From: Isoetes taiwanensis
Lineage: Eukaryota; Streptophyta; Lycopodiopsida; Isoetales; Isoetaceae
Direction of reading: 5' to 3'
NCBI GenBank assembly: GCA_021234155.1
Contig: JAJEKV010000052.1
Coordinates: 3,278,254 to 3,342,253, forward strand
DNA: 64,000 bases
Shown here: piece by piece, positions 13,851 to 55,819 of the stretch
Layout of the letters: each line of letters starts with the position of its first letter
Position numbering within the stretch: the stretch's first letter is position 1
Program-made: the position numbers and the translations under genes
The notes under the pieces: model-generated
What the model saw: the letters and a program-made list of their open reading frames with translations, nothing else
What the model was told of the DNA's origin: nothing
Database searches by the model: none

Positions 13851-14615
13851 GCAAGTATCCCTCGACAAATGATTTCCAATCTGCAACTTCATCCATCAAG
13901 AAAGCCATTGGGTTGGGGTCAATGCAGCTCTCAAATACATCCATTAGTTCAGGGAGACTAGTCACGTTTTCTCTCTTGAGCTTCGTAGAGAAAGTTCTGA
14001 AGAATGCATCTATATCATCATGCGTATGCCCAACCATCATGAACCCCACTTTCACAACTTTGAATACTTCCACTGCCGTCAAGTATGACATTGCCCCAAA
14101 CATCCATGTATTCTTGTTTTCTTTCCAACAGTTGTCCAATTGAACACATAGATCCTCTGGCAGTTGTTTCTCAAGTAAGGGGAAACCATCCCAAGTCCTC
14201 CATGATTCACTGGACACCTTGGATGTGAGATTTTTTATCTGCCTTTGGTAACAAAGCGGTTGATCATCCATCAAATCCTCAAAAATGGGGGCTGATGGGG
14301 AATACTTCCTCCCTTCTATCGATCCTTTCTCTAGTGTTCTCAAGCACTTGAAAATAAAGCTCACATGGAAGTTTGGATCATCCCTCCATGGATCAAGCAC
14401 AAAATGACCATAGGTTCCAGTTCCATGCCCATGTGTTAAGACACCCGCCAGACTTACTTTCATCTGAAAAGCATTTTGACAACGCTTGGGTAAAGGATCT
14501 AGCTTTGGCAAGAAAGTCTTGTGTTGGTCCATCTTATCATGAATTATACACAAAAATTTGTCAGGCTGCATCTGAGAAAATGTTCTCCACTGCCAATACA
14601 ACTGTCTACATGATA
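13851..14615 (-). pseudogene. DUF7869-type transposase-like protein, copy 1, C-terminal half
   Basis: Read on the - strand, the frame gives LCIIHDKMDQHKT, then LTHGHGTGTYGHF, VQLDNCWKENKNTWMFG and VGFMMVGHTHDDIDAFF. These are the hallmark blocks of the DUF7869 family. The Asp in HDKMD, LDN and HDDID could be the acidic triad of an RNase H-like transposase fold, which is my inference. It aligns through its length with copy 2 (30235-31000). It is cut on one side by the gypsy LTR, after ...FVEGYL, and on the other by a Helitron. The missing N-terminal parts are at 18366-18855 and 21887-22224. Confidence 0.85.
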
Positions 14616-14729
14616 CTAGGAACGGTGCCCAGCGTTGCTGGGCATAAGCTCATAACCTATAAATGATACACTACAGTGATGAGAGAGGCAAGCATGAATA
14701 ACCTAGAAGTACTCCATTGTTAAAGTAGT

Positions 14730-16437
14730 TGACACCGTTTCTCTTTCCTTTTGCCATTTGCTATACCCCGCTTTTATACTTTTGCTTTTTCCTTTTCCTC
14801 GTACGCGTTTCTTTTTCTTCTTTTCTTTTTTTCCTCTTTTCACTTTCAGTTTTCTTGATAAACTTTTTTCCTTTTTCCCCTTCATTTTCTTTTGACTCTT
14901 CCGTTATAATCTTTCTACACATTTTTCCTCTTTCCTTTTCTCTTGTACCGATTTTCCTTTTTTTCCGACCCTTTCTTTCTTCCCCCTTTTTTTCCCTCTC
15001 CTTTTTTTGCTTCCTTTTTGCCTTTCTTCACTCTTTCTCTCTTCCTCCTTTTCTTGTGACCTTTCGCCCTTCCTTTTTCCCATTTCCCTCTTCCCCTTTT
15101 TCTCTTGCCCTTTTTTCCAGGTTCGCTTTCACCCTTTTCATCTGTCCTTTTCTTTTTCCTTTCCCTTTCTCTTTTTCCCTTCCTTTCTTCCCATCCTTTT
15201 CTTGTTCCCCTTTTGCCCTTCCCGATCCCCATCTTTTCCTTTTTTCTCCTCTCTCAACCCTTTCCCTTTCTGTCTTCCCCTTTCCCAATGCCCTTTCGCT
15301 CCCCTTTTCTTTTTCTTTTTTCCATGCCATTTTTCTCTTTCCTTTTCCTCTTTCCACACCGGTTCACTCTTCCCCTTTCTTCCTTTCCTTTTTCCATGCC
15401 CCTTTTCACTTCCTTTTCCCCCTCTCTTTGCCCTTTCCCGTTCTCTATCCCTATCCCTTTTCTTGATGGACTTTTTTGTCCCTCATTTCCCAACCCTTTT
15501 CCTCTTCTCCTTTTTGTCGTGCCTTTTTTACCTTTCCTTTCCCCTTTCCCCCTTCATTTTCTCTTCACTTCCTTCTTTCCATGCCCTTTTCAACATCTCT
15601 CTTTTCCCTCTTGCCTTTTTTCCTCAGCCTTTTTCCTTTTTTCCCCACCCTTTCTCTCTTCCCCCTCCCCCCCCTTTTTTTTTTCTCTTGCCCTTTTTCC
15701 ATGCTTTTTTTTCACTTTCCTTTTCTTCTTTCTTTTCCTTTTTTTCTTGTACCCTTTTTCCCCTTCCCTTTTCCTTGTCTCTCTTCCCTTTCCCTCATGC
15801 CCTTTTTCTCATGTTCCTTTCCACCTTTTCTCCTGCCTCCCTTTTTTTATTTTCCTTTCTCTTCTCCATTTTCCCATGCTCTCTTTCTATTCCTTCTCCC
15901 CACCCTTTTCTTGTTTCCCTTTTTCCCCTTCCTTTTTCCTCCTTTCCCTTCCCTTTCGTCCTCCCTTTTTCCCTCCTTTTTTCTTTTCCCTTCTTCCATG
16001 CCATTTTTTCCTTCTCTTTTCCCTCTTCTCACCCTTTTCTCTCTTCCCTTTTTTCCACCTTCTTTTTCTTCCTTTTTTTCCATGCTTTTTTTCACTTATC
16101 CTTTTCCCCTTTCTTCACCCTTTCCCGCTTTCCCTTTTTCCCGTGCTCTTTCACCCTTCTCTTTTTCATTTTTCCTTTCCCTCTTCCCTTTTTTTGGTGC
16201 CTTTTTTTCCAGGCTCCCTTTCCTTCTTCCTTTTTTTTTTTTTCATTTCCCTTTTCCCATGCGCTTTTCCCCTTCTCTTTACTCCACCCTTTTTCTATTA
16301 CCCTTTCTCCCTTCTTTTTTCCTCCTTTTTCCACCCTTTGCTTCTTTTTCTTTTTTTCCCCTCGTTTTCCCCTCCGTTTCCTCACCCTTTTCCACCTTTT
16401 TATCATGCCTTTTTACCCTTTCACGTTCCCCTCTCCT
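14730..16437. repeat. Polypyrimidine tract 1
   Basis: About 1.7 kb of almost pure C+T on the + strand, built from irregular words such as CCCTTTTTCC and CATGCCCTTTTTCC. It lies inside Helitron A. The long open frames it creates on both strands result from absent stop codons and are not genes. Confidence 0.95.
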
Positions 16438-16633
16438 CAAGACATCAAAACATGACTAATCATAGTGGTCAAAAGTCTTGCAATAAATCTCTGCCTTTGG
16501 ATGCAATTAGATGATCTCGGTCATTCAAATTAGGGCTTGATATGGGCAAATGTTGGGAACATTTGTGGATGGAAACCTATTCAGCTCAGACTCATTAACC
16601 AAGTTCATCATATCTAGGCTATAAGATGTTTTT

Positions 16634-18230
16634 GTGCATTTGATAACCTTCCCTATCATTTTTTCCTCATTTTCTTACACACTTTCTTTTTTCCCTTTTC
16701 TTATTTTTCCTGCACATTTACTTTTCTCCTTCTCTCTCTTTTTTTTTTCTTTTCTTTTTTACCCTCTTCTCCCTCCTCTTTTCCTTCCTTTTCTCCTTCT
16801 CATTTTTCCCTTTCCCTTTCCCTTTTTTGACGGTTTTTTTCCTTCCCTTTTCACCTTTCTCCACCCTTCCCATTTTTCTCATGCTCTTTTTTCCCTTTCC
16901 TTTTCCTTTTCCCATTTTTGCTTTTCTCTTTTCCCTTCCCTTTTCTCATGTCCTTTTTGCATTCCCTTTTCCCCATCTTTTTTTTATGTTTTTCTTCCTC
17001 TCTTCACCCTCTTCTTCTTTAGCTCATGTCTCTTTTTTCCCATTTTCTTCTTCCTTTTTTCTCATGCCTTTTTTCCTTTCCTTCCCCCCTTTCCGCCTCC
17101 CTTTTTCTTTTTCCCTTTCCTTCTTTTTTCATCATTTCCCCACCCTTTCCCTTTTTCCCGTGCCCTTTTCCTCTTTCCTTCCCCCTTCCTTTTCTCTTTC
17201 CCTTTCCCTTTCCCTTTCCTTTTTCCTTTTTCCTTTTTCCTTTTTCCTTTTTCCTTTTTCCTTTTTCCCATGTATTTTTCCATTCCCTTTTTTCCACTTT
17301 TTTCCACTTTTTTTTACTTGCCTTTTCTTCCGCCTTTCCCTACCCTCTTCCCCTTTTTTCTTTTTCTTTTCCCTTTCCCTATAGATGCTCTTTTTCCCTT
17401 TCCTCACCCTTTCCCTCTTCCAGTTTTTTCTGTGCCCTTTTTCCCTTCCTCTTTTCTATTTTCCCTCCTTATTCCTCGTGTTCTTTTTTCTTTCCCCTTT
17501 TCGCCTCCCATTTCCTTTTTTTTCCTTTTCCTTCTTTTTTTTTTCATCCTTTTCTCTTTTTCCATGCCCTTTTCCTCTTTCCTTTCCACCCTTTTTTTTT
17601 CCTTCTCTCTTTTCCTTTCCATTTTCCCATACCTTTTTCCATTCTATTTTTTCCACCTTTTTCACATGCCCTTTTTCCTCCTTTTCCCACCCTCTTCCCC
17701 TTTTCCCTTTTCCTCTTTTCCTATTCCATGTTTTCTGTTCTCTTTTTGCTTTTCACTTTTCCCTTTTCTCCTTTTCCCTTTCTTTTTTTCCTTTCCTCAC
17801 CCTTTTCCTCTTCTCGTGCCACTTTCTCCTTCCTCTCTCATTTCCCTCTCCCTTTTCCTCATGCCCTTTTCCCTTTTTTGCCTCCTTTTTCCTTCCCTTT
17901 CTATTTTTCCATGCCCTTTTTTCCTTCTCTCCATCATTCTTATCTTCCCCTTTTTCCCTTCCGTCACCATTTCCGTCTTCACCTTTTTCCCGTTGCCCTA
18001 TTTTTCTTCCTTTTCCTCCCTTCCCCTTTTCTTTTCTCTTATTCTGTCCTCACCCTTTCCCCCTTTTCCTTTTCATAGTGTCCTTTTTACCTTCCTTTTT
18101 CTCCCTTTCTTTTTCTTTCCCTTTTTCGTGCTCTTTTCCCTTTCCTTTTCCCGTCTCCGTCTTTCCCTTTTACCCGTGCCTTTTTGCCTCTCACTTTGCC
18201 CTTTTCTCTGCCATTTTCCCTTTCCTCTTA
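16634..18230. repeat. Polypyrimidine tract 2
   Basis: A second ~1.6-kb C+T tract in Helitron A. It includes a clean microsatellite of CTTTTTC units at about 17219-17269, preceded by CTTTCC units. Such homopurine-homopyrimidine DNA can form triplex (H-DNA). Confidence 0.95.
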
Positions 18231-18365
18231 AGAGATCAGAGCATGGCCAATCACGGTGGTGAGAAGTTGTGCGATAAATCTCGGCCTTCGAATGCAATCA
18301 GACGATCTCAACTATCTAAATTAGGGTTTGATTGAAGACATACGCTAAAACTTTATAATATAAGA

Positions 18366-18855
18366 TTTGGTCCCTTTGGTGATCTGCTTGCTCCCTAATT
18401 GCCATTCTTTCTTTCTCTATTGCAGTTGATGCAAGTGTATCCTTGAGTTGAATGCAAGTGTTACACTTTGAGAATGGCATGTGTTGCAGGACACTCACGT
18501 CTGAGAAGTGAGTGCTCCATAACTTGCTGAAATGTGATTGAGAAAGAGGCTTGACCTCTTTAAGGCACTCTTTTTGGATGTAATGTTGTGGCAACACCCT
18601 TTGGACCACTCGCACACCGTGCTCGTTCACCTTCGACTTGTGGGGCATAGATTGAGACATGTATCTCACGAAGCTCTCGAAGACTGCAATGGCCTTCAGA
18701 GTGTTTGCTCTAGGTTTCAAAGTCAGTGCATTGCCATGTTGGAACAACCTGTGCCCTTTTCTAACCTGCTCCCAGTATCTTAAAATGAAGACTTGCTCAC
18801 GCCAAGAATCCATCTCAATGCTCTCATACATACCTTCAGGCCCCTCAATTGATAT
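18366..18855 (-). pseudogene. DUF7869-type transposase-like protein, copy 1, middle part
   Basis: On the - strand the frame reads ISIEGPEGMYESIEMDSW, then RKGHRLFQHGNALTLKPR, then PFSKCNTCIQLKD and REQADHQRDQI, where the Helitron begins. Copy 2 has matching blocks in the same order (AEHGNTGSKKPRSVTL, FSKCNICVVIKQK). The last codons before the Helitron and the first after it (SCRQLYWQW at 14600) join in one frame, as expected for an A|T insertion. The region probably holds a helix-turn-helix and a Cys pair (CNTC). Confidence 0.82.
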
Positions 18856-21770: not shown

Positions 21771-21886
21771 GAATTTTTTTTTGCCATATTTTGGACGTAT
21801 TATACTTCAAATTAGTGCCGTATTATTCGAATAATACGTATTGAGTATAAAACGTATACAGTATTGAACCTATCCCTGATCGATAT

Positions 21887-22224
21887 AGTAACTTTCCTGT
21901 GTTTTCATCATAGTTGGAATTTCTGCACAAGGAGTAGATGAAATTAATCCTATCTTTCTGAAGTTGTCCAATGTATTGGGACCTTATCAGCACGAGGTCA
22001 TCCACACTGTACTGGACTGTGCAATCTAGGTTGCAACACTCTTGTCCCCTAATTGCCTCTAGGTTTTCTTTGGTTGGGGCCATACTTTCCATCCTTTCTA
22101 AATATTTGTCACTTCTAGCCCTCTTGGGCACCCTTGGCTGCCTTTTATGAAAAATATAGCGCCTCTTCCTTGTGATCAAAGGATGCTCATCCACCACCAA
22201 ATCTTCCACAAAGCACAATTTCAT
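21887..22224 (-). pseudogene. DUF7869-type transposase-like protein, copy 1, N-terminal part
   Basis: The ATG at 22224 (- strand) reads MKLCFVEDLVVDEHP, then a basic segment (TRKRRYIFHKRQPRVPKRAR) that looks like a nuclear localisation signal. A Cys cluster follows (GQECCNLDCTVQYSVDD) with LIRSQYIGQLQKDR. Copy 2 has the same order: KRKRKYTYVKR, CCKDEC, then ALRKEF. The frame just before the hAT-like element (NTGKLLY) must shift by one base to meet the middle part (ISIEGPEG). More N-terminal sequence, as in copy 2 exon 2, is missing here, so this may be an internal exon rather than the true start. Confidence 0.75.
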
Positions 22225-24130
22225 TAAAATGAGAAATTTCGTGATTCCAATTAGGAACGAAAATCCTTTTTAGTCCATTTTATGCCAATTTTTTGAGCAA
22301 TTATGGCGCCATTTAGAAAAAATATGCCTCTAAAACGTCATTTATTGGCGCCATTAAAAATACTAAGAGTGCATATAATGAAGCTAAAGAAACACAACAT
22401 CACAAAATTAGTTAAAAATTCCAAATTCATAGATTTGCATATCAAAAAATTTGCCACAACAGGCAAGGACTCGAAAGAGAGAGTCTGTTTACAAAAGGAT
22501 TATTGTACAATTTAAATTACAATCACACAAAATTCAGGGTTCCGCATCAGGATCAGGTTCCGCATCAGGATCAGGTTCCACATCAGGAGCAGGTTCCTTA
22601 TTGCCAGGGCCATGGCTAGAAGAAGCAACCATAGGATCTCCCTGAAAGCTCGAGCGCCTGTGGCGGTGAAAGTGGGATCACTAAGAAAGTCCGGATCGAA
22701 TTGTGTGTTCTTGATCACATCATAGTCCACATCGGGTGGAGCCGGGCATCTACGGATTAGGTGGATCTCTGACTTCTTCAACAACAGCACCTTTTGTCTC
22801 TGTAGGAACTGCTGCGATGATAGGATTCAGTAGGCGGTCAAGCCTACCAAGAATTCCCCTTAGGCACTCCTGCTTAACCGGGTCACTTTCGAACACAATG
22901 CAAAATCTCTTATTCATCAATGAAGCCCGCCAAAAGAACCACGGGGAGAAGTAATCAAACACCCCCGTTCTGGCGGTACCATTTTACGCGAGGTAGGAAC
23001 ATGTGGCGGGCCCCTGGTTTCTCATGATTATGTCCCACGGCAAGCCTTGCCACCAGACTGAATCTGGCATTTGCGAGCTTTCCTGCCATAGCCTCGCTCT
23101 CCACATCTTCGTCTTCTTCGTTAGGCACAGGAACTAGTGGCAGTTCTTGAGGATGATCGTTGAAGGGAAATTTGAGGTCAATTTCATCGACAGGGTGACC
23201 TGCAGTGGCCTGAATTTTTGTGGCGTACACTAATGCATGGACCTCGAACTCACGGGGGTAGCCGGATTTTTGTATTAGATCCTCATGCGTGCCAATAAAA
23301 ACTCTGGATCTGGAATCCAGATCATCCAACACAGATGAAATCAAAAAGTTATGCTCTGGCCTTGCAAAGACCACTATCCAGAAAGAATCAGCTGTGGTGT
23401 TCTTTACAGCTGTATTAAAGAAATTAGATAGTGTGGTTTTGTCCCACATTGGAAATATCCCTCTAGTGTCCAGGGCAATCAAGGATGCTTTGATGCAGAG
23501 TGCAAACAACTTGCCCCCTGGCGTCGGTAGTTCAACCGCAACGAAAGTCTTCGGTATCCTCTCTGCGCAAGACGACACGTGCGTCTGAATCTTGCCAATG
23601 CTGGTGGCACGTTACCGAAAACGCCTTCCTTGCCCACTCCAGTTTCAACCCACTTACTATGCAAGGTGGCCATAGAAATCAGGTCGGCATCCTCGAAGCC
23701 CGGCACTGCAGTACTGAGATCAGTGAAGGATTTGAACTTCCTCGGAAAATTATCCTTCACGTATTCAAAAATCTCCTTCTTCAAGAAAGATATGGATCTT
23801 AGTGTCTTTGCCCTTGTCTTGAAGAATTGCTTACCTGTATAATCACTGGTGACCTTGACGAAGGTCTTCCCATCCAGCACTTCCTGGAACAAAACCCGAC
23901 GGTCTTCGTAGTCGAGACCCCTCATGCACCTCAGGTAGGTCTGACTGAAGTATCTTGCAGCTTGCAAGATTTCCATAAGTTCCATAGGGACATGAATAAC
24001 TGAAAAATATCCTCTGGCATGAAGACCCACTGGTTGAAATCTTTTGGATGCTTACCACGCATGGTAACCCAGCCAAAGCCAAATACTTATTTGGAAACAA
24101 CAAGAAGTTAGCCTTGAACGACATTTAGTG

Positions 24131-24158
24131 AGCAAATGGCGCCGCGGCGCCATTTGCT
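24131..24158. repeat. 28-bp perfect palindrome in the second intron
   Basis: AGCAAATGGCGCCGC followed by its exact mirror complement. It has the same design as the palindromes of intron 1, but the centre is CCGCGG rather than CCATGG. It lies in the presumed intron between the ParB-like and C-terminal parts of the gene. Confidence 0.9.
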
Positions 24159-25999
24159 AATCTTGCCAAGATTACAACAGTATGTACCTTGTATGGTTCA
24201 GAGCGTGACTGCCCGCGTCCCGATGGATCAGGCTTCCCGCATAGAGCATATTGCTACCGCAGGTGGGTTATGTTATCAATGAAGGGCTCTTTGAAAATAG
24301 TCTTCGCAGTGATATCATTGACTTCAACCGAAATTTTGCGAGGCATTCCTGTTCGTTGATCGTGCGGATAAGACTTCGGCAATTCCGTTGAAGATAAATC
24401 TTTGACATTTGCTCTTGGGACTTTTTTGTCCCCGAGTCTTCTACATAAAGCTGAGCAGCCATAACTGAATGATTGCCATTCACTATATAATAGTGCATCC
24501 CCATGAGGTCATCCTCGGTTTTCCAAGCGACCAGTTTGTTTGTGAGGGGATTGAATGGAATCACATCGGCGGGAGTGAACACTGGATGTGGGTCTCTCTG
24601 AAAGGACTCCACTAATGTTTTGACGTGCTCCATATTCCGTGGTCTAGATGTCAGATTTGCTGGCCCTTGATATAGTTTGAACACGTCTATTTTTTTTATA
24701 AATGTGACACCCAGAGGAAACAGATGCCGGTGATCGTAAATTTTTTGCAGTGTATTCTCTGCCGTCTTTTCCTCTTCTGACCTTTCCACCTTAAGATTTG
24801 AAGGCACCTCTAGCAAGTGCTGAGCGATTCTTAATGTGAGCTTCTTTGGCTCTGGCTTCTTAATGGGGACCCTCTTGGCCGGTGTGTCCGCAGGTTCCTC
24901 GCTATGCCTTGGGCTCGGAGGTTCACCACCACTTGTAGGACTTCCAGCAGGACTTGGAGTCCGAGTCACTCTCCTTTGTTTTTTAGGTGTCCTCTCCTTC
25001 TCAGAGGTCGCCAGCCTGTGCTTCTTCTTCTTTTTCCCATCCATTTCCTCTGTCTCCACTTCCTTTCCCTCCTTTTCCTGTCTCGCCTTTCCTTCCTTCT
25101 GCCCCTTGCCTTCCCTATCCTTTTCTTTCCTTTCCCTTTTCTTTTCCTTCTTTTCCTTCTTTTCTTTCTTTTCTTTCTCTTCCTTCTCTTTCTTCTCTTC
25201 CTTTTCCTTCGCTTGCTTCTTTTCCTTCTTTTCCTTATCTGGATCTTTGTGATCCTTTCTCTTAACTTTCCTCTTGCCTGCCGCCTTTCCTTCCTCAGTT
25301 TCCTGGCCAACATCCTCAGTAGAAGATGAGGAGTCTTTGTCGGCTATAGGTGTCTCCTTAGTTGGTCTTGTCTTCTTCTTGCTAACTGTTTTTAGCCAGG
25401 CCGTGTCCACAATGGCGGGTAGTTTCTGCTGGGCTAATGCCTTGACAACGAATGAAGGCGAGTTTTTCGACTCGTTCAGCCGATTGCGAAGAATCATAAA
25501 GCCCCTCAAGATTTCTTGTGGGCCTTTGATGTCAGCTTCTTCAAAATTTGTTGTGCGATGACGGCGCCGACCTTGCTTCTTCGCCGAACCAGCTACATTT
25601 GCAATGCTAGCAGACATTACAGTGGGATCATAAAACTTCCAGTTCCACATAGTAGACAAGTATTCTCTGCTGCAAAGTATCCTCACATACCACCCGGATC
25701 CAATCCTCGCGACCGCTCTTGGCAACCATCTTCATGTTGACCAAGATACCTGGCTGGTAAATTCCGGCTGTTTCTGGGTCTGTCTCCCTTATAAGGAGGC
25801 AGAGCTCTCTTCTGGAGTCTCCTTTCGAGCCTGTAGCAGTAGAGGGGCTCACCCGCATTACTTCCATGCACCAAGCATGCGCCTCACATCATAGTGCGGG
25901 TCGGATTGAAATTGTGTTTCCGCACGTAACATAGCTGCAACAAAGGGGCATCAGTAACAAAGAGGCATCAGTAAATGGTTTTAACAATCAGTTGTGGCA

Positions 26000-26900
26000 G
26001 CCAAATGGCGTCATGGCGCCATTTGCATCTGAGTCCAGTGCATCACATGCGGCCAGGTTCGTATGCCTTTCACTGCGTTTGGTCGCAGAGGCCTCCACCC
26101 AGTCCAAACCCCTCCCCTTCGCAATATTCGAGGAAGATGGTTCGAAGGAGAGTGGCTCGGACTGGGTGGAGGTACCAGCGACTCGTAGGAGAGAGCACTA
26201 CAGAACGCAACACAACGAGAAGCGAGCAGGCAGACCAGATGACTAGGCAAATGGCGCCATGGCGCCATTTGCATCCGAGTTCAGTGTATAAGCAAATGGA
26301 AGCAGTTCGAATGCATTTCCCTGCGTTTGATCGCAGAGGCCTCCACCCAGTCCGAGCCCCTCCCCTTCCAAATATTCGCGGAAGATGGTTGGAAGGAGAG
26401 TGCTGACTGGGTCGAGGCACCTGCGATTTGCAGGAGAATACATATGCGAATGACTCCATTAGTGTTAATGGACCGGACGCAGATAAAAATGGCGCCATGG
26501 CGCCATTTGCCAACAACAAGTCCCAAATGTATGCTAATAGACATCAAATAGCGCCATGGCGCCATTTGCAAACAACAAGGCCTTATGGTAAGCTAATAGA
26601 CATCAAATGGCGCCATGGCGCCATTTGCCAACAACAAGGCCCTATGGTAAGCTAATAGACATCAAATGGCGCCATGGCGCCATTTGCCAACAACAGGGCC
26701 CTATGGTAAGCTAATAGACATCAAATGGTGCCATGGCGCCATTTGGTAGCAACAAGACCATTTAGTAAGCTACCAGGCATCCTAAAGTAAGTTGACTCCT
26801 AAAGTGCACTCAGTCATTCAAATGGCGCCATTTGTCAACTATAAGACCCTAAAGTGGTTACCAGGCATCTAAATAGCGCGGTGGCGCCATTTAGCCCAAA
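26000..26900. repeat. GGCGCC palindrome array in intron 1
   Basis: The 24-bp palindrome whose half is CAAATGGCGCCA occurs many times, perfectly at 26248-26271 and nearly so at 26002-26025. From about 26540 to 26760 it sits in a 59-bp tandem repeat (starts 26540, 26599, 26658, 26717). Between 26030 and 26460 a longer GC-richer segment (GGCCTCCACCCAGTCC...) also occurs in direct and inverted copies. The whole array falls within the predicted 991-bp first intron. Confidence 0.92.
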
Positions 26901-26992
26901 AAAACAATCCAAGTAGATAACATACCTGTCCCTTGAGGTGCGCTAGCGGCTGTCTCCACGTTCTGAGGAGCTCCAGAATTGTCGATTTCCAT

Positions 26993-27898
26993 TACGAGCG
27001 CCTTGAATTTGGTCCGAAAACTGGTGTGTATCTAGATGCGTTGAGGCGCTGAAATGGCGCTAGAAAACACTAGAAACAGAGGACTCAGAAGGGTTGCTTT
27101 AGGCGCTGGGCGCTAGGCGCTGGCGGCTAAGGTCGAGGCGCTAGGAGCTGGAATCGAAAACGAAAAAACCGAATGAGAAGCTTCAGAAAAACAAACTTTG
27201 GGCTTAACAAACTTTGGGCGCTGGCGCCCATGCCCGTCCAGCCGCCCATGCCCGCCCATTCCCGTGGCGGTCCAGGCGCCCATGCCCGCCCAGCCGCCCA
27301 TGCCCGTGGTGGTCCAGGCGCCCATGCCAGCCCATGCACGTGGCGGTCCAGGCGCCCATGCCTGCCACAATTTGAATTTTGAAATTCGAATTTCCCTTCT
27401 TAACCTAATCGCCCAAATTTGAACATAAAATTCAAAATTCCCGCCCGCCCCTTAATTAACATAAAAGTCAAAATTCACCAGAATTGAAATTTGATGCCAC
27501 ACATCAAATTTGAATCGTCCGCTTTTAAAATTGTACTTTGCATTTAAAGCTCCCTCTTTGTCGTCGTGCTCCCACTTAATGTGACCATGCCCGCGCCGGA
27601 TGTTTAAATCCCGGTTCAGGCGCTTTTCGAATCACTTTGTTTCGTCTCGGTACCTTCGCATAAAGCTTAGCTTCTTTTCTTAGGCGCCTGGGCAAAAACT
27701 TTGCAAGGCGCATGCGTGCTGTCAGGCGCTTTCTTCTTGGCGCTCACAGAAATCCCAGGTGATTCTTGGCGCTTCTTCTTGGCGAATCCTTTGGCACTTT
27801 CTTTTTTGCGAACTCTTCTTGGCGCATTCTTTTGCGAATATATCTGCTGGGATCAGCTTGATTTATTTGTTCCATCTATCTTACTGGGACATACCACT
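26993..27898. promoter_or_regulatory. Divergent intergenic region between two transposon genes
   Basis: It separates the starts of the - strand gene (26992) and the + strand gene (27899). It contains GGCGCT/AGGCGC words (27040-27130 and 27680-27830) and a GC-rich tandem repeat of GGCGCCCATGCCCGCCC type at about 27219-27362. No other gene is seen. It is the natural place for a bidirectional promoter, which is inference. Confidence 0.55.
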
Positions 27899-30800
27899 AT
27901 GGATCTATCTAATATCAAGTAAGTCCCTTTGTTTACGGTATGAATTACGTTCTATTGCTGCCATGTGTATAAGCGTGTTCAAATCTTGATATGAATCTTT
28001 GCTAGGAAACTAAGAACCTTGGTTTCAATTGCAAAGTTGGCATGGGGTGCCCATGTTATGCATGCCTGCTCTTATTGACACATATACAGCAATGGGAGCA
28101 AGAATGCATAACATAGGCACCTCGTATAGATTTTGTGATGGAGCTAAGCCAAATCGCCCCATGTGACCTTGGATCAAATGGCGCCAGGGCGCCATTCTAT
28201 TCCAAATACACCCTTAAAATGGTGGAGCTGGTCTTAATGGCGCCATAGCGCCATTCGGTTGAAAATGGTGCACGGCTGAAATGTAAATTTGGAGCCAAAT
28301 GGAGCCATGGCGCCTTTTGGTCGAAATGGTGCACTTGGATCAAATGGCGCCATGGCGCCATTTTTTCCAAATTCACAACTATGAATTTGTCATAGATGTC
28401 AATTTGAGATCAAATGGCGCCATGGCGCCATTTGGCTCCAAATTTAGACCAAAATTTATTCTTTTGTACTAAATGGCGCCATTTTAGCTTATTTATTGCT
28501 TATTTTTCGTCTATTTCATATGTTCTAAAAAGTGTCGCCTTGCTTGATTGAAACAGGTTCAATTTTCCCCTGTACAACCTATTCGTCGGAAGGACAATTG
28601 TTGCCTGGGGACATATTTTGAATAGAACCACTCTTCATGGGAAGGAAATAGATCCTTCAAATGTAGCTATTGAGGTCACGGAGTCCGTGATCCCATCGAC
28701 CGAGCTTCCAATCCCCTGCGGAGGGGCAGATAACATTGGTGAAGTAGTAGGCACATTCATTCAGTGGCCTAAGAGGGATGTAAAACAAAATGAGTGGCCA
28801 TCAAGTGAAGATACGTCTTCGAGATCCCTCAATTTGCCCTCTTCAGAAGAGGATTCATCTAGTAGTCCACCATCTGTCAGTAGCTTTCGCCATGGGACAT
28901 CGAGTTTCACTTTGCCACCGCGTGGTGAACCAAGCAACACAGCAACAAATGAAGAAGACGAGATAGTAGAGGAGATTGGAGGTCATGAGAATCTAGCTGC
29001 CCGTCTTGGTCTCAGGTTGTTTAAGCCTGAAGAAGAGACAGTCTACTACTCCAGAACAGATCTACTAGGTTTGCCATGCTACATTCTTCATTCCTGCATT
29101 GGATCTAAATATTCGGAGGCGAATATAGTCTTTAGTGATCCTCAGGATGCTATAGACGATGAGTTCTTGGGTGTATCAAAGGTTGGGCTTTCAGTGGGTA
29201 ACATAATAGATCCAACGGGAAACCAAAATATCAGGTCATGTCATGCTTGTGCTGAGAGGCCTATAGCTAACAGTCTAGTAATTTGGGAGACCCATGCGGT
29301 TTTGCTTCATGATGGTAGGACAGTTTCACAACATTTACAAGCTCGAGCTGCTCTCAAAGAGGATGACTTAGAAGTTGAGTGCTTGGAAGCTGATGTTGAG
29401 AAGCAATTCAAGAGGAAAAGGAAATATACATATGTGAAGAGGTGGGGGGAGGGAACCAAAGGGGGATAGCAAGGAGGAGAGGATGTGCGCTTCCAAGTCA
29501 ATCAAGAGTGCTCTAAAATCAACATGCTGCAAGGACGAATGTGTCAAAAAACTGAGCTGAGAGCAAGTATGTGCCTTAAGAAAAGAATTTTAGTCTCAAT
29601 CAAGCAGTGCCAGGATTACGCTTGTTTTTGATGTGTTGAGTGTAACTTATCTGGCAGTGAGGGCGAAAGTAGTGGTCTCTGGAGTGGAGTGCTGTCAATT
29701 CGCATGGCGCGTGGCTTTAGGAGTTGCTCAGTCTACATTTTATAGTTGGAGGAGGAGGTTCGAGTTAGGTGGAAAACGGGCAGAGCATGGTAATACAGGC
29801 TCTAAGAAGCCTAGATCTGTGACACTAGCTACAGAAAGTGTGCTTGATACCTTCATTAGTGAGAATGCGGAGAGCATTCCACATAGAAGCAAAAAAGGAA
29901 AGGATGATATAAGGGAGAATGTTCGAAAACTTCCTTCCATTCTTAATAAGAAGAGCATACATAAGGAAGTGGGTGCCGTGGTGGAAGAATTGACAGGAAA
30001 GAGTGTAACCTTGCCCTCTTTTTACAATATTTGGAAGAAGGAGTTTCCAGACGTCAGCATAGCAAAAAATACAGCATTCTCCAAGTGTAACATATGTGTA
30101 GTCATCAAGCAGAAATTGGAAAGAAAAAAAGATACAAGGGAGAGGCGTAACCTTTCAATTCAACGGCGGGCACATATGTTGGAACAACGTTTCTGTAGGA
30201 GTCAATATTGGCATTGGCGTGCATTATCACATCGTTCGCCAGAAAGTCACCTTTGCATAATACATGATAAGATGGATCAGGTCAAAACACTCACACCAAG
30301 AAGTCACCATCTCGCAAAGTCTGTTTGGAGAGGAGATCGCTTGAAGAGCAGCGGCGGGGAGCATTGACACATGGTCATGGTGGACGGGCTTATGGCCATT
30401 TCTCTCTTGATCTTTGGAAGGATGACTCAAACTTTCATGTTGGATCACTTTCTAGGATCCTACACTATCTTGAGTTGCCGGAAGAAGACAAGTGTGGTGA
30501 TCTGTGTGGAAGCAGAACTACAGATTGCAAATTGATGCAAGCCCTAAAAGATACTCGACCACTGCAGCATAAGCTAGCGCAGACACAAGAGAAGATGCCT
30601 TCATCTTCTAGTGCCAACTTAGAAGGCTTCAATCCTCTTCCTCGAAATCTTTACTTACAGTTGGATAATGCATCGGGTCAAAATAAAAATAGATATGTGT
30701 TCTCCTACCTCTCTTATTTGACATGGCTTAAGGTATTCGATGAGATTCTGGTTGGCTTAATGATGGTTGGGCATACTCGTGACGATATTGATGCATTGTT

Positions 30801-31794
30801 TGGGAACTTTTCGAAGTTAATGAGTTCATCGGATGCTCTAACTTTGCCTGAGTTGCTTTACTTGTTTAGCAAGTGCAATGCAAAGTCTCCTGTTCCATAT
30901 TTTGTGGATGAAGTTCCAGATTGGAAAGACTTTGTCAAGGGATATATCCCTGATAAAGGCCAACGTCTAACAGGCCATACCGACCCATTGCTATTCCGAT
31001 TTAAAATGGATGGGAAATGGCCCATTATGCAATATAAGATGCGGCCAACCCATAAAGAGTGGATTCCAGAAAAAGGAATAAGAATGTGAAAGGAGGATGA
31101 AAATGGTGAGCCAGCGTTACCAGCGGGGTGCCTAAAAATATCCCTCAAGGAAGACATTGAAAGATCTCCCGGCTGGCAGACGACATCAGCAAATTACATA
31201 GCATTATGGAATTCCTTACGCAAAAATCAAGAAGATAGTGTGTTTGCACGGCATTACAAAGCAACTATGGATTCTTTGGAGCGAGATTCTTGTGTGTTTG
31301 GAAGATGTATCTATCCGGACGACCTCAAAATGATAACTTTTGGTTTGCGTACAAGGCAAGAACCTCTACAAAGCTGCATTTATTCAGGAGGTCGATGAAA
31401 CCATTTGTGCTTGTAAGACCTTTGCCTACGTATTGTGGGCGGCGGATGGGCGTCCGGTGTTGCCTATGGATGAGTTTGATCCTCATGCACATATTCTGAA
31501 AGGTATGTTCGTTTTAGTCCGACTTGAGAGCGATGAAACTCCAACGTGGTTGGGCTTTCTGAGAAGAAGATGCCATCCTAGATCCGAGTCTACCAATTAT
31601 GGTCACATTTATGTATCATGGTGGATGCACGTTGGTCGTGACTATCTGATTGCTTAACTAAGCGTTGGCGACCCAATCCATCAGATCCATCAAGGTATGA
31701 GAAGTTAGATGCCATACATTATGCATGGGATGCAAATGGCAAAAGACAGAAGACTGTTGATTCAAAATACATTGTTGACATGTGGGGGACATAG
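27899..31794 (+). pseudogene. DUF8039-DUF7869 transposase-like gene, copy 2
   Basis: Exon 1 (27899-27918, MDLSNIK) has a GTAAGT donor. Intron 1 (27919-28556) ends GAAACAG, and splicing joins the frame to FNFPLYNLFVGRTIVAWG. A DUF8039-like domain follows (TTLHGKEIDPSNVAIEV, ELPIPCGGADNIGEVVGT, FIQWPKRDV). Then come a Ser-rich linker, a DP-D-DE-LG block at about 29130, a basic segment KRKRKYTYVKR (about 29410), a Cys cluster (CCKDEC, about 29525), a helix-turn-helix-like part (GVAQSTFYSWRRRF) and the DUF7869 blocks CIIHDKMDQ, LTHGHGGRAYGHF, LQLDNASGQNKN and VGLMMVGHTRDDIDALF. The C-terminus runs through WAADGRPVLPMDEFDP to a stop at 31794. Breaks: a shift near 29450, in-frame stops near 29550 and 29590, a shift near 30330, a TGA at 31087 and a shift near 31340. 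Probably a DDD-type transposase. Confidence 0.82.
27919..28556 (+). repeat. Intron 1 of copy 2, filled with GGCGCC palindromes
   Basis: The donor GTAAGT and acceptor AAACAG give an in-frame join. Inside are repeats of the same palindrome as in the divergent gene, including a perfect 24-bp copy at 28411-28434 and near-perfect ones at about 28180, 28235 and 28341-28364. Confidence 0.88.
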
Positions 31795-32422
31795 CATTAG
31801 CTAAAAGCTCTCAATCTCAGTCATGTTCTCGATAATCATGTATGTAATTTCTTTTGCTATAATACTTAAGCATTTTGGACAATTAATACATAGTCGATAC
31901 ATCAAATAATATTCCATTATGCTTATACTAACATCCTTACATCTTTTATAATAGGTGTTTAATACACATCATTACATCTGATGCACATATTATTGATGGC
32001 ATACATATAATTTAGATGCACATATTATTGATGGCTTTATAGAGTCGATGATTCACTCATCATCAATCCCTGCTATTGTGATCGCATTCAGCTTTCGTAG
32101 GCATGGCTCGGGGAACCCAAAGAAGATGGATCACAACACGAGTAAGGTCGGGGCAATCACACTCCACGACCTTACGCTTTGGATTGTAAGTAAGGATCCA
32201 GCTTAACACCTTTATGTATGCAGCGATTAATATCATTGTAGCTCATGGAGCAAAGAATGGTCTCAAACTGATCTTCATAAATATTATAAGCCATGGGAGA
32301 TGAATGACTTACCGAATGGAGCTGCTTTTATAGTCGTTGTAGAATTATTGGTATAATACTTCAGCATTATTGGTATTATACGTGAGCATTATTGGTATTA
32401 TACGTCAGCATTATTGGTATTA
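31795..32422 (+). other. Spacer after the transposase gene, with 22-bp tandem repeat
   Basis: No gene is seen. It is AT-rich. From about 32337 a ~22-bp unit (CAGCATTATTGGTATTATACGT) is repeated about four times up to the Helitron insertion, and the same repeat resumes at 36969. GCACATATTATTGATGGC is repeated at about 31983 and 32020. Confidence 0.6.
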
Positions 32423-34270
32423 CTAGAAATGCTGCCCAGCGTTGCTGGGCATAAGTTGGGAACTTGTATGGACAGAAACATGTTCAGCTCAGTCTCCTTT
32501 TCAATAATTTGATATAATAGAAACCAATCACAACTTTTCCGGGCTCTAAGAAATTTTTGTGCATTCGACAATGTTTCCCTTTGCCTCTTGCTCTATCTCG
32601 AGTTTCCCTTTTTCTTTTCTTTTTTTCTTCCTCATTTTTCTATACACTTTCCTTTTACTTTTTTTCCTTTTACTCAGTTTCTCCACACCTTTTCTTTTTT
32701 ACTCAGTTCCTCTTTTTTCTGACGAACGTTTTCCTTCCCTTTTCATCATTTCCCCACCCTTCCCCTTTTCCCCGTGCCCTTGAATTCTTTCCTTTTCCTT
32801 TCCTTTTCCTTTTCTCCTTCCCTTTCCCTCTTCCCTTTTCCTTTTTTCATTCCCTTTCTTCCATCTTTTTCATGTGCCTTTTCTTCCTTTTCCCACCCTC
32901 TTTCCATTTTCACCGTGCCCGTTTCAACTCCCCTTTTTTTCTCTTTTTTCTTTTTTTTATGCTCTTTTTCCCTTCATTTCTCTCCTTTCCTCACCATTTC
33001 TCTCCTTTTCTTTTTCTCGTGCCCCTCTTCCCTTCTCTTTTCACGTTCCCTCTCCTTTTTTTCTCGTGCCCTTTTTCTGTTTTCTTTCTCCCTTTCCGTC
33101 TCCTTTTTTCTTTTTGCTTTCCCTTCTCTTTTCATCCCTTCCCCACCCTTTTCTTTTTTCCCATGCTCTTTTTCCCTTCCTTTTTTCTCCCTTTCCTTTT
33201 CTCTGTCCCTTTTGCTTTTCCCATGCCTTTTTTTCATTTCCTTTTTTATGTTTCCCGTTTTCCCATCCTTTTTTTTTCCTTTCCCCTTTCCTATACTCTT
33301 TTTCTCTTCCCTTTTCTCCTTTCCTCACCGTTCCCCTCTTCTCCTTTTTTCCGTGCCTTTTTCCCTTTATTTTTTCCCATTTTTCTATCCCCTTTTTCTC
33401 GTGCCCTTTCTCCCTTTCCTTTTCCCCTTTTCATCTCTTTTTTTTTCCGCTTTCCCTTCCCATTTCATCCTTTTCCTATCCTTCCCTTTTTCCCAGTGCC
33501 CCTTTTTCATTTCCTTTCTTCTCCTTTCCCCTTTTTCTTTCCCTTTCTTTTCTCTTTTCTGTGCCTTTTTCCCATTCCCTTTTCCCCACCCTTTTCATGT
33601 GCCCCATTTCCTCCTTTCCCCAGGCTCTTCCCCGTTCCCCTCCATTTTTCATTTTCATTTTCCTTTTTTCTATGCTCTTATTCTATTCCCTTTTCTCCTT
33701 TCCTCGTCCTTTTTCTTTTCCCCTTTTTCACATGTCCTTTTGCCGTTCTCTTTTTCCTCATGCACTTTTTTCCTTCTCTTTTCGCCTTTTGCTTCTTTTT
33801 TTCTTTTCCTTTCTCTTTTCCAATGTCCTTTTTCCCTTCCCTTCTCTCCATCGTCTTCCTCTTTCCCTTTATCCCTTTCCTTTCCCTTCTTTCCCCACCA
33901 TTTCACTCTTCTCTCATTCCCCTTTTTTCTATCCCTTTCTCTTTTCTTTTTTCCACCCTTTTCTATTCTCTTTTTTCCCATGCTCGTTTTCACTTCCCTT
34001 TTTCCTTTTCCCTCTTTTCGTTTTTCTAATGCCCCTTTTCCCTTCCCTTTCCCCCTTTCTCTCTTCCCTTTTTTCTCGTGCCTTTTTGCCTTTCGCTTAC
34101 TCCCTTTCGTCCTCCCTTTTTCTTTTCCCTAGCCCCGTAAGAGATCAAAGCATGGCCAATCATGGTGATAGGAAGTCGTGCGATAAATCTCGGCATTTGG
34201 ATGCGATCTAATGATCTCGGCCATTCAAATTAGGGCTTGATACAACACACTAAAACATTATAATATAAGA
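32423..34270 (-). mobile_element. Helitron B with polypyrimidine body
   Basis: The - strand start is TCTTATATTATAATG at 34270. The terminal hairpin is at 32434-32450 and the CTAG end at 32423-32426. The left host base is A. On the other side it touches Helitron C directly. The body is one ~1.55-kb pyrimidine tract (about 32577-34130), and the conserved 5' region (34137-34243) is like both units of Helitron A. No coding capacity. Confidence 0.93.
32577..34130. repeat. Polypyrimidine tract 3
   Basis: About 1.55 kb of nearly pure C+T on the + strand in Helitron B, of the same irregular structure as tracts 1 and 2. Confidence 0.95.
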
Positions 34271-36968
34271 CTAGTACGGGTGCCCAGCGTTGCTGGGCAT
34301 AAGTTGAGAGCCTGTAAATTTTTTGGGTTGCACACTAACAATGTCAATTTTGTAGTGCTACTACTATTGTAGTATCGTTCTAGCAAAATGTAACATCGTC
34401 TTACATTGTAATATTATGTCCAACTTTTTCTACCCTTAAACAAAGTTGGAAACTTCTTAATGATAGAATCAAGTCCCTGTTCCATGCCATTGTGGACTCA
34501 TGTTTGGTAATAGCGCATGTCTAAATGCTCAAAAGTCACACTTGACAATATCATGCATTTGAACTACATTCTAGGTAGTTTGTTGTCTGTAAAGCAACAT
34601 AACTACCACTAGTAACGGTGCCCAGCGTTGCTGGGCATAAGTTAATAACGTGTCAATAATGACCTTAAATACAATGAATAAGACAACAATGGGAACGAAG
34701 AGGATGATAGGCCTTCACTCCATTTGAGGTTGATGTTGCTCAAATATTGTTTATTATGGCTGATTATGGTGTTCAAACTGCTCTAATACGCATGCGCATT
34801 ATATATTATAGTGTGAAAGATTTGAATATATTATTATATTGCTCTGATGTAAGTTGTTATGGCTTGTTAAACGAATGTTGGTATATTGCACTAATGTGCA
34901 TACTTCAAACCTACAAATGCAAACTCTAGTTCGTTTGACATACTAATTTTGAAAAAGAAAGTGCAAATGAGCCTGCCAAAAAACTCCAAAATGTAATAAT
35001 ATCGCATAACAGTCATTTCCTCTAGAACATAATGATAACGTTCAACTCAGATTTCGAAAGTAGCTAAATATGTTAGGCAGTGCTAAAATGCATTATGTTA
35101 TGCAGTTCAAGGGCACAAAGAGATCTGTCTATGAAGGATACATGTCTCTACATCAGGAAAATCTCAGGGATAAAGCTACCGAAGCCTTTTGATCCTTCAT
35201 TATCAATTTTTCCTTGATGTGTCTATGTCACATCTGTCACAACCTTAGTGAATGGTTTAATTAATTTATTGCATATTCGAATTGAGCGTTCTTGCCATGC
35301 CATCCTCTATATTTATATTCCTAATGAATTATTTTCCTAATGAATTATTGCCCATCCATAGGGAGATGTGCTCAAAGCTTGGGGATTGATCAACACCAGA
35401 TCGCCCTCCATAGAAAATAGACTGCAACCTTCTGCCACATTCTAGATCCTTCTAGAATGGGAACTGGCTGTGATCCAGAAATCGTATAGTATAGCTATCT
35501 GGAAAATTGGCTATCAAATTTGACAATAGTTTAAAACGTTCCAAAGCCTTGGCTTTAACAAAAGATCTGAACTGCTCTAAAAGTGTTCAAAGCCTTTATG
35601 AGTGGTGCTCCATGGCAAACCCCCTGCAAAAGGAAGAACAAAATTCAAGAATTTGGCAGGGCAAGAATTGAAATCAATGCAGAGAGGACGACAATTAAAA
35701 GTACCTTACTTCTAAAAGCCTGTAAATTAAGTTAAGAAATTAGTCCGCACACAGGATTAACAATCACTCATCTCTAATCTCTTTGCAGTAGCAAGCCAGG
35801 CAATCTAAGCTCCTAAACTCATCCCATTTAGTCAGCACACAAATCCCATGAGCATTCATAACCACTGCAATATCTCTGTGTGAAGGTGCAAATCTAGGAG
35901 CTGCAGATGAACATGCAGAAGGGTTAGAACGAATCAGAAGTAGAGAAAACGATTAAAGTGGAAGCATTGAAGAGCGAGAAAACTGAGCGAGAAAATGGAC
36001 GAAGAATAACGCAGAAGAAAGAAATAGGAAAAAAGGAAAGAATAAATATACAGACCAGCCTCTCAAATAGGTGAAGCAGAAGCAAAACATATCCATCTCA
36101 CAGAAGATATATCGATTGATTGGCTGTACCCTACATCCTGCCAACACCAAAAGCAACACCTGCAAAAACTTTCTAGCTTAGCCTGCAACAACCTAGCTTC
36201 TTAAGGCTGAAGCACAACTATTTTGTTCTACATCAGCCAAACAAAAAGCCTATGAGCAAGCATATCCATAAACAAAGCCTATCCACAAATATTTACATAT
36301 ATCCTCAGAATGAATATGTACCAAGTCATTTCTACAGCAATTGAACATCACAAACAACCTTAAATCTCCTGCAGTCATGAGTTGCTTGCATTGTTCTTTG
36401 TGAGCTTTCCTCTTGATAGATTCGATTTCTTGGAGGTAGACATCCTGAAGCCACCTCCCCAAATTCAAAATATCAGAACCCCAAATAGTCTAGCATCTTG
36501 CCTATTAGATCACGTAGTTGTAAAATTACCATGGTTTTGAAAGCTTGAGGTCTCATAGCTCGGGTACTGAGGGCAATAGTCACTTGAGGAAGGGAGATGA
36601 AGCGGAAGAGGAAGAGCCTGCACAAAACCGTGCAAGGCACAAATCATTCGGCACAAACCCTCTGCACAGACCAAATCCGGCAGCCCTTTCCAACCGATGC
36701 CATCTGGGGTCGATCTAGAAGTCTTCCTGTGCGCGCCCAATTTAGGGCTCTTCCTAAATCGCTAGAGCCAGAAAGGGCAGGAAAAGAAAATCGAGAAAAG
36801 GCAGAAAAAGACCGTGGGCTATCCGAACCGTCGAACTTTGTTAGATCTGGGCCTTTTTTTTTAGTTAAATCAAATCATGGCCGTCGAATTTAAGGCAAAT
36901 CAAATTCTGGCCGTCGGATTTAGGGCTCGATGCACTACGCACTTACGTCAAAACATTATAATATAAGA
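34271..36968 (-). mobile_element. Helitron C with two terminators
   Basis: The - strand start is TCTTATATTATAATG at 36968. It ends with a hairpin at 34282-34298 and CTAG at 34271-34274, immediately before the TC start of Helitron B. A second intact terminator (hairpin 34620-34636, CTAG 34609-34612) lies 338 bp inside. Only one 5' start is visible for two 3' ends. The interior holds no recognisable Rep/helicase. The 36500-36850 part reads like the 5' UTR and first exon of a captured gene on the - strand, but I cannot name it. Confidence 0.85.
34609..34636 (-). other. Internal Helitron 3' terminus
   Basis: CTAG (34609-34612) and the hairpin GCCCAGC-GTT-GCTGGGC as read on the + strand (34620-34636) are intact. 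They are followed by the usual ATAAGTT and preceded by host-type A. It is either a bypassed terminator of Helitron C or the end of a nested element whose start is lost. Confidence 0.85.
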
Positions 36969-37497
36969 TACTTCAACATTATTGGTATTATACTTCAACA
37001 TTATTGGATTCGTAGTTATAAATTCTTTTACCTTGTTTTCACTTCTCACTTTTCATCCTTGCTTCTTGCTCCTTCATCTTCCTTGTTCCTTGATCTTCTT
37101 GCTACTTGATCTTCCTTGTGCCTTGATCTTCTTGCTACTTGATCTTCCTTGTTCATTGCTTCTTGCTACTTGATCTTGATCCTTGTTCCTTGCTACTTCA
37201 TTCCCGTGCTCCTTGCTACTTTATCTTGTTCCTTGCTCTTGATCTTGCTACTTGATCTTGTTCCTTGCTACTTGATCTTGATCCTTGCTTCTTGCTCCTT
37301 GATCTTCCTTGTTCCTTGATCTTCTTGCTACTTGATCTTCCTTGTTCATTGCATTTTGCTACTTGATCTTGATCCTTGTTCCTTGCTACTTCATTCACGT
37401 GCTCCCTGCTACTTGATCTTGTTGCTTGCTCTTGAACTTGCTACTTGCTCTGCTCCGTGTTCCTTGCTCCGTCGGTGATCCTTGCTTGCTTTTGCAA
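36969..37497 (+). repeat. 22-bp repeat remnant, then CTTG-rich low-complexity DNA
   Basis: 36969-37015 resumes the 22-bp repeat broken by Helitrons B and C. From about 37040 to 37480 the DNA is made of CTTGATCTTCCTTGTTC-like words, with a larger duplication (about 37066-37190 and 37284-37400). No gene is seen. Confidence 0.8.
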
Positions 37498-37992
37498 ATG
37501 ATTGGACCCAATCCTCCCGGGCTACTCCGGAAGGCTGCAAGCATGCGGGCATTACGCGTGCAGCCCGGAATGGATGAGCTATGGGACCATTTCTTGGAGT
37601 GGAGGTTGCGCCACAGTCCCACCAAGGAGCTTACAATGGAGTTGATCAACTTCATTCTGGAGCGATTTGATTGTGGTCATGAGCCACTGATGGAAATTAA
37701 TCCATCTGAATGTTATAGGAGACTTGCAATGAGGGGAATGCTTGAACCCCCTCCTTATCTGGACGAGATGCTACAGCAATTGAGGCCTCTTCTTCGTGCT
37801 GGATATTTAGCACACTCTCTGGATGCATACATATCAGAGTTCATTCATGAAATTTGTAAGGGACAGATGTATGGCCTTATTAGGGTGTACTACAACATTT
37901 ACAACGGTTTTGTGGAGTTGGGTCCGCTCTTCTTCCGTGAGTATTATCCTGTGGAATTACTTTTTCTAATGACTAGGCTGGGAGGAGCGTGA
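37498..37992 (+). CDS. Unrecognised 164-residue protein
   Basis: The ATG at 37498 follows the CTTG-rich repeat and opens an uninterrupted frame. It is mainly helical, with no signal peptide or membrane span. Segments include MDELWDHFLEWRLRHSPTKE, LEPPPYLDEMLQQLRPLLR and YYNIYNGFVELGPLFFREYY. Aromatic and Leu residues are spaced as in a folded domain rather than random translation, and the frame is intact, unlike most others here. I do not recognise a family. It could be a Gag-like N-terminal domain of a retroelement or a fragment of a captured gene. The short spacer after it is GA-rich. Confidence 0.5.
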   Translation: MIGPNPPGLLRKAASMRALRVQPGMDELWDHFLEWRLRHSPTKELTMELINFILERFDCGHEPLMEINPSECYRRLAMRGMLEPPPYLDEMLQQLRPLLRAGYLAHSLDAYISEFIHEICKGQMYGLIRVYYNIYNGFVELGPLFFREYYPVELLFLMTRLGGA

Positions 37993-38149
37993 GCTCTTGA
38001 CTCCTAACCCAGATGCGTGGGTTAGACCTCGCAGGCGAAGGGAAAGGGGAAGGGGAAGGGGTTAGGAACCTGAGGGAAGGTTACTAGGGACATACATAGT
38101 TCATAATTCGGTCTCTATTGTGTTTGGAAGTTGGTATATGATACCGTGT

Positions 38150-38330
38150 TATTATGTTCTCTAAATATTCATGTATGTATGATACACGGGTACTGCACGT
38201 GTATACAACCCCTGCATAAGGTCCATGATACAGGGTACTGTACATGTGTATACAACCCCTGCATACCCCCATAATAAAAAAATTCCAGTTTACTAAAAAT
38301 TTTCCCATTATAATGAAATTGTGCTTCACA
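38150..38330. repeat. Repeat shared with 61.4-61.7 kb
   Basis: GTGTATACAACCCCTGCATA and a ~65-bp block (AAAAAAATTCCAGTTTACTA ... AATGAAATTGTGCTT, about 38270-38327) recur in the same orientation at about 61570-61697. In both places the block adjoins a fragment of the DUF8039 gene family, but on opposite strands relative to the gene. Confidence 0.8.
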
Positions 38331-55537: not shown

Positions 55538-55819
55538 TAATGTTGTAGTGGCAAAAATTTTAGAATTACATATTACACTCACATATTACACAACAACTCA
55601 CATTCAAACATCCCAAATCTCTACCCCTGGTATTCGCCAAGTTTTAGCCAACTTTACACAATATTTGTGATTGAACTTGTTCAGTATTTGTTTTGCAGTT
55701 GACGGATTCCTTGACGTATAGCAACTCAATCCATTGGAATTGTTTACAAGTTCAAAATCTATAGATTTATTGCGTAGTTGTGACTCCATATCTAACGACA
55801 TTTCCATTGCTTGGTCACT

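Follow-up and report, generated by a model that had tools for sequence, protein, structure and literature searches.

A two-gene transposon of Isoetes taiwanensis that pairs a DUF7869 gene with a divergent ParB-like and methyltransferase-like gene

The window (the whole 64,000-nucleotide stretch of Isoetes taiwanensis DNA analysed here) contains a genuine transposon whose two genes lie within one set of boundaries. Its terminal inverted repeats, the 4-bp duplications of the target in 7/7 copies with two visible ends and the divergent pairing of the two genes bear out what a sequence-only reading had proposed. We read this element as a Sola1-like DNA transposon and a new land-plant variant, a likeness to Sola1 drawn from description. 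In our main reading, to which we give a probability of roughly 0.7, it moves by cut and paste through a predicted DUF7869 transposase and carries a partner gene whose ParB–methylase product would bind palindromes. The core idea of a ParB–methylase gene paired with a transposon is already known, from the available parts of PMC12477816 and the algal precedents cited there. An arrangement known from one brown algal family and these precedents is thus seen to recur within the genome of a green plant.

Element boundaries and target duplications

Probing the 1.66-Gb genome (1110 contigs) with 1 kb of gene 1, taken towards its 3′ end, gave 443 first-look candidates. Of these, 40 were scored and all matched, the 39 copies outside the window at 86–92% identity. 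Ten of the matching copies were taken with their flanks for boundary alignment, which revealed the terminal repeats and the 4-bp target duplications. On the left, homology begins at 22205–22211 in nine of the ten copies and at 22518 in C7; on the right, the end lies at 38326 or 38327 in the five copies that aligned there, and that of C5 was placed by its end motif. Both ends of the window element (22211 and 38326; Table 1) fall outside the extent of 22534–31794 first assigned to it.

Both ends are visible in 6 of the 11 F1 copies (the window, C4, C5, C8, C9 and C10) and in F3, a subfamily reached through the gene 1 search. All seven carry perfect target duplications: CACA, CTTA, AGTA, GATT, TATA, TATA and GAAC. 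Of the two subfamilies measured, one has a 9.7-kb and the other an 11.6-kb element.

The start codons of the two genes lie 907 bp apart on opposite strands, close to the 900 bp estimated at first, and the splice sites could be read from the sequence. Both genes are frameshifted in the window copy, and longer open copies exist elsewhere in the genome. In one copy (C1066:2340244–2349685; L036 is its gene 1 part), the gene 2 match falls in an open frame of 1136 aa and the gene 1 match in one of 456 aa, the two being divergent. The possible third small ORF has no match in the F3 element; compared with a relative in the C3 copy, it gave a dN/dS of 0.73 with frames partly shifted.

Table 1 Features of the element in window coordinates
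Feature	Position	Strand	Remarks
Whole element	22211..38326	.	11,571 bp once the nested Helitron-like insert is subtracted; flanks CACA
Target duplication CACA, left copy	22207..22210	.	Adjoins left element end
Left terminal inverted repeat AAGCACAATTTCATTAAAATGAGAAATTT	22211..22239	+	26 of the first 29 positions equal the right end
Gene 1 exon 3, altered methyltransferase-like domain	22530..24090 (approximate ends)	-	Frameshifted in window copy; 552-aa open frame in C8
Palindrome in intron after ParB exon	24129..24160	.
Gene 1 exon 2: N-terminal part, Lys-rich linker, ParB-like domain	24188..25934	-	Splice signals; weak ParB profile matches
Palindrome array, gene 1 intron 1	26002..26745	.
Gene 1 exon 1 (MEIDNSGAPQ...)	26926..26992 (26992-26926)	-	ATG, GTATGT donor
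Gene 2 exon 1 (MDLSNIK)	27899..27918	+	GTAAGT donor; splice sites read from sequence
Palindrome array, gene 2 intron 1	28177..28434	.
Gene 2 exon 2	28557..31835	+	Weak HTH-like stretch, CxxC, DUF7869 core, weakly BAH-resembling C-terminal part; frameshifted in window copy
Nested Helitron-like insert, foreign to the element	32423..36968	-	CTAG and hairpin at one end, A|T site
Possible third small ORF	37498..38023	+	Open over 225 aa in C8 and C10; disrupted in window copy
Right terminal inverted repeat	38298..38326	-	29 bp, pairs with left end
Target duplication CACA, right copy	38327..38330	.	Adjoins right element end

Gene 2 encodes a candidate transposase

In a Pfam search, gene 2 matched DUF7869 (PF25273, E=2.2e-37). 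The DUF8039 domain that had also been assigned to it did not reappear, as no Pfam match was found at E ≤ 1 on that exon; the HTH-like stretch gave HTH_29 at E=0.005, under the cutoff of that profile. Homology searches returned 15 proteins at E ≤ 0.001, including four labelled Physcomitrium patens. The Cys cluster (CxxC) and the three acidic blocks, recognized earlier from the sequence, are invariant in all 15 aligned homologs. In P0001 numbering, the conserved residues are C419 and C422; D479; D660-N661; and G695-H696-x-H698-x-D700-x-D702. The diverged families F2 and F4 read GHTHDQIDQ at the third block, with one of its two D residues changed to Q, so the final D is the one common to both sets.

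An RNase H fold had been put forward for structure prediction. Two AlphaFold models of the DUF7869 protein had low mean pLDDT values (49 and 53). Around the conserved residues, both low-confidence models show the order strand-strand-strand-helix-strand-helix-strand-helix, additional helices being inserted ahead of strand 4. Of the acidic residues, the first is at strand 1, the second where strand 4 ends and the third in the final helix. RNase H-like transposases have the same order of strands, helices and acidic residues. The order thus agrees with the prediction, but Foldseek returned no match reaching 0.001 for either model. With the second model, Mos1 ranked first (E=0.031, probability 0.44) and a mitoribosomal protein next, followed by weaker matches in which Hermes, Tn5, retroviral integrases and Argonautes were mixed with unrelated proteins such as methyltransferases and septins. 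With the first, BAH domains and ribosomal proteins were returned (best E 0.1), the C-terminal part resembling BAH weakly. Motif and secondary-structure order in these low-confidence models suggest an RNase H fold, and we infer that the DUF7869 protein is the element's transposase, its activity and fold being predicted.

Relationship to Sola1 and other transposons

We place the element with Sola1 because of its 4-bp duplication, its paired ParB–methylase gene and its occurrence in a plant. Sola1 elements make a 4-bp target duplication, as do all seven two-ended copies here. The pairing of the two genes had been thought to belong to no described superfamily, which does not hold: Sola1-1_Ec32 of Ectocarpus has the same arrangement (PMC12477816, 2025). 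As described in the available parts of that paper, Sola1-1_Ec32 is a DD(E/D) transposon that also encodes, on its opposite strand, a 1104-aa protein that is ParB-like and an N4/N6 methylase. Such proteins are suggested there to bind and modify their own transposon, the role that we also propose, and green and red algal transposons with similar proteins are cited (Iyer 2011; Petroll 2025). Sola1-1_Ec32 represents one Sola-1 family of 21.5 kb in a brown alga, whereas the green plant has several families (9.7 and 11.6 kb in two subfamilies), palindrome arrays and one lineage whose methylase motifs are altered. Neither the available parts of PMC12477816 nor the open-licence literature searched mentions land-plant cases, the altered-methylase lineage or the palindrome arrays.

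The transposase could instead define a superfamily separate from Sola1, given that the likeness is one of description and that the names DUF7869 and DUF8039 appear in no paper in the open-licence literature searched. We consider this rather unlikely, as the 4-bp duplications, the opposite-strand ParB–methylase gene shared with Sola1-1_Ec32 (PMC12477816, available parts) and the DUF7869 homologs in Physcomitrium, where a review lists Sola1, all speak against it.

A CACTA/En-Spm filing was rejected on the AAGCACAA termini and the 4-bp duplications. CACTA/En-Spm elements are two-gene plant elements with one binding protein, and have CACTA-type termini and 2–3-bp duplications; the present element differs from them in its termini, its duplications and its DUF7869 protein. 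A base-modifying enzyme is also carried by the fungal TET/JBP DNA transposons, as presented in the available parts of PMC12730594, but there the enzyme is a dioxygenase rather than a methylase, and the transposases belong to named groups such as hAT, IS3EU, Harbinger, EnSpm, Plavaka and KDZ.

Gene 1 joins ParB-like and methyltransferase-like domains

The assignment of gene 1 to a ParB-like protein with a degenerate N4/N6-methyltransferase-like domain stood by way of diverged families, with motifs altered in the window's lineage and the ParB part recognized through weak matches. The window-lineage protein alone gave no useful Pfam match, a PDB profile search with its methylase-like domain gave no methylase, and profile A1 matched none of the PDB sequences. 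Its domain matched phrog_3008 weakly (three of four members, best E 0.13). Judged by eye in the four A4 members of this lineage, motif I is altered but conserved (DYF(S/T)CGS...KRFC.VFE.D), and an LDTRGIFP-like sequence replaces the DPPY-like motif IV.

The same genome holds two diverged families, F2 (L029 and L030; transposase 23% identical) and F4 (L035; 21–26%). Both have a divergent gene with a ParB-like region beside the transposase, and methylase pieces occur in L030 and L035. The F4 methylase matches PF01555 (Pfam N6_N4_Mtase) at E=5.4e-15, with 56.4 bits against a cutoff of 26.7. The F2 piece in L030 reads LIIADIPYGF at motif IV; alone (L030:816-1277), it matched nothing in Pfam, and no motif I could be placed in it. 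C976, a relative of F2 with an 82% identical ParB region, reads VADLPYGF and DAFSGSGTT by eye. Against the PDB, a profile of F4 and F2 (A2) found MboIIA (3.1e-6), CcrM (5.9e-6) and RsrI (1.6e-4), the CcrM alignment spanning motifs IV to I. In these beta-class adenine methylases, motif IV precedes motif I, as it does in F4 and C976 (motif IV D-I/L-P-Y), and L030 shows motif IV; unlike them, the plant methylase is fused to a ParB-like domain and sits in a transposon of a eukaryote. The marks of a beta-class N4/N6 methyltransferase (a PF01555 profile match, and motif IV followed by motif I) were thus found in the diverged families but not in the window's own lineage. Judged by sequence, the gene 1 family encodes a ParB-like protein with a predicted DNA methyltransferase, its motifs altered in the window lineage and canonical in F4 (by Pfam) and C976 (by motif).

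The window lineage is tied to the intact-methylase families by a ParB profile match, by the same position and orientation of the gene, and by a match at motif I only. The ParB regions of the window lineage and the F4/F2 lineage aligned as profiles at E=0.001 with an hhalign probability of only 22, and the methylase-like domain matched the intact one at motif I only (E=0.15). For the ParB label itself, TIGR03764 reached 5e-4 at best, far under its cutoff, in two of five members, and DUF6551, which we take to be ParB-like, reached E 0.012, also in two of five. Sulfiredoxins followed at E about 1–2, ranked behind two unrelated matches, and the region gave no ParBc Pfam match. These matches are weak but agree on a putative ParB identity. 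None of 6493 candidates was a gene 1 homolog with a window-lineage query; with the F4/F2 alignment as query, one of the 7993 scored was, a protein of the fern Adiantum in which the ParB part was covered.

Between F1 (C8) and F3, dN/dS was 0.135 over 544 codons of the methylase-like exon and 0.08 over 155 codons of the ParB exon, with dS saturated at about 2.3 in both. A gene 2 piece gave 0.19 over 157 codons, and two further gene 2 comparisons of partly misframed pieces gave 0.32 and 0.59. The low gene 1 values between subfamilies indicate that the altered methylase looks conserved rather than randomly decayed.

Palindrome arrays and a proposed mechanism

Consistent with the GGCGCC palindrome that had been noted in both first introns, CAAATGGCGCCATGGCGCCATTTG is present in the first introns of gene 1 and gene 2. 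Counting palindromes with an arm of at least 10 and at most one mismatch, we found 12 in the window element, 11 of them in or beside the first introns and one in a later gene 1 intron, against 0–2 in ten Markov controls. F3 has 14, of which 13 are of the family type (controls 0–2), and the F2 loci have 6 and 7, including 4 and 5 of their own family type (controls 0–2 and 0–1). Over 10.2 kb of the element, GGCGCC occurs 32 times where 1.3 would be expected, and its numbers in the flanks (10 and 9) also exceed expectation (about 2.7 and 2.6). The family repeat is ATGGCGCCATGGCGCCAT in F1/F3, GTGTATTCCGGAATACAC in F2 (4 and 5 sites) and GTATGAATTCATAC in F4, with 5 exact sites and 4 with 1–2 mismatches, counted without a shuffle control. 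In F1/F3, F2 (copy E1) and F4 alike, some sites follow the ParB exon and others fall between the genes or in their first introns, the introns of F2 and F4 being drawn from frames. Three families therefore have different palindrome repeats at corresponding places.

We propose that the DUF7869 transposase recognizes the AAGCACAATTT terminal repeats and inserts by a 4-bp staggered cut; the ends and duplications are observed, and the activity and fold are predicted. The gene 1 product would combine a ParB-like DNA-binding part with a beta-class DNA methyltransferase, probably one acting on adenine, and may bind the palindromes between and inside both genes. In the families with intact motifs it might also methylate them, presumably at adenine, and this methylation could mark or regulate the element's own promoters or shield them from silencing. 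In the window lineage the catalytic motifs are changed, so gene 1 there probably encodes a sequence-specific binder only.

Another possible explanation is that gene 1 encodes an architectural co-transposase of the type represented by TNPA of En/Spm, which binds repeats and assembles the ends, with methylation secondary. The two-gene layout is in keeping with such a role, as are single GGCGCC hexamers some 95 and 137 bp in from the left end. However, the arrays are central and lie in introns, and no GGCGCC occurs between 28475 and the element's right end. Because the palindromes are central rather than terminal, we favour regulation or marking over end assembly and regard a co-transposase as somewhat improbable. 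It is unlikely that the palindromes are RNA hairpins or intron-borne enhancers unlinked to gene 1. Family palindromes do sit in inferred introns or the intergenic stretch, but the three families differ in sequence while keeping the perfect-palindrome form and similar positions, which suggests a protein partner that changes with them.

The preferred reading, a palindrome-binding ParB–methylase partner, can be extended tentatively. Each family may have a private palindrome and its own ParB–adenine-methylase, forming a restriction-like address system that tags the family itself as distinct from non-family DNA, with one branch turned into a pure binder; we hold this as a possible but doubtful idea. 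The family-specific palindromes at corresponding places offer a testable target for the ParB–methylase system. 6mA in plant nuclear DNA is a disputed mark, and the canonical-motif genes, if expressed, would be candidate writers of it.

Genome-wide pairing of the two genes

Pairing was assessed from two independent lists, the best 150 of 9903 first-look candidates in a DUF7869 HMM search and the best 150 of 1443 for N6_N4_Mtase; all 300 scored places were above their cut-offs, and places within 15 kb were taken as a pair. These best-150 lists yielded 24 DUF7869–methylase pairs, with 0.4 expected and 0, 0, 0 and 2 in four shifted controls. Twenty-two of the 24 were divergent and two were not; the spacing was 5.1–6.0 kb in 17. 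Among the 126 unpaired methylase places, eight were sampled at random and 2.5 kb was read at the predicted transposase place, where seven showed DUF7869 similarity on the predicted strand and one (L041) did not. In the window's family, the best 79 of 92 gene 1 rows and the best 100 of 109 gene 2 rows gave 16 pairs, all divergent (0.14 expected; none in four shifted controls); the lower-scoring rows dropped were mostly further pieces of places already counted. The two genes thus occur together in other copies, with one of the eight sampled methylase places as an exception. DUF7869 first-look candidates were about seven times as numerous as methylase ones, so DUF7869 elements without gene 1 may be common. 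Chance proximity of the two genes, or a host gene cluster, is highly improbable in view of the shared ends and duplications and of how far the divergent pairs found genome-wide exceed random expectation.

Nested insert and surrounding DNA

A nested 4.5-kb Helitron-like insert splits the right part of the window element, and its site is empty in 6 of the 10 other copies. Six Helitron-like 3′ ends, in which the hairpin TGCCCAGCGTTGCTGGGCA adjoins CTAG, occur in one orientation at 14626, 32433, 34281, 34619, 40627 and 44148. Long CT-rich low-complexity tracts lie near Helitron-like ends at 14900–18300 and 32500–34200, with GC skew down to −0.75 in 2-kb steps. Beside one of the other loci taken with flanks lies a proteasome alpha gene whose best PDB match is 7qve_j, from spinach (455 bits; 325 for the runner-up), in keeping with a green plant.

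Further pieces of the family had been placed at 13.9–22.2, 38.3–38.7 and 60.1–61.4 kb. The segment at 38.3–38.7 kb is flank and matches no query. That at 13.9–18.8 kb belongs to another DUF7869 family, remnants of which lie left of the element at 13852–14613 and 18385–18756 (minus) with 44% and 33% identity to gene 2; by eye only, 21823–22269 is possibly a DUF7869-family remnant. At 60649–61378 there are four F1-type palindrome sites and a stretch 58% identical to the gene 2 N-terminus (61.2–61.4 kb), likely a piece of a further related element. At 55794–58425, units of about 47 and 97 bp that contain GTGCCACGTGTGCCAAGTGGG are repeated in tandem.
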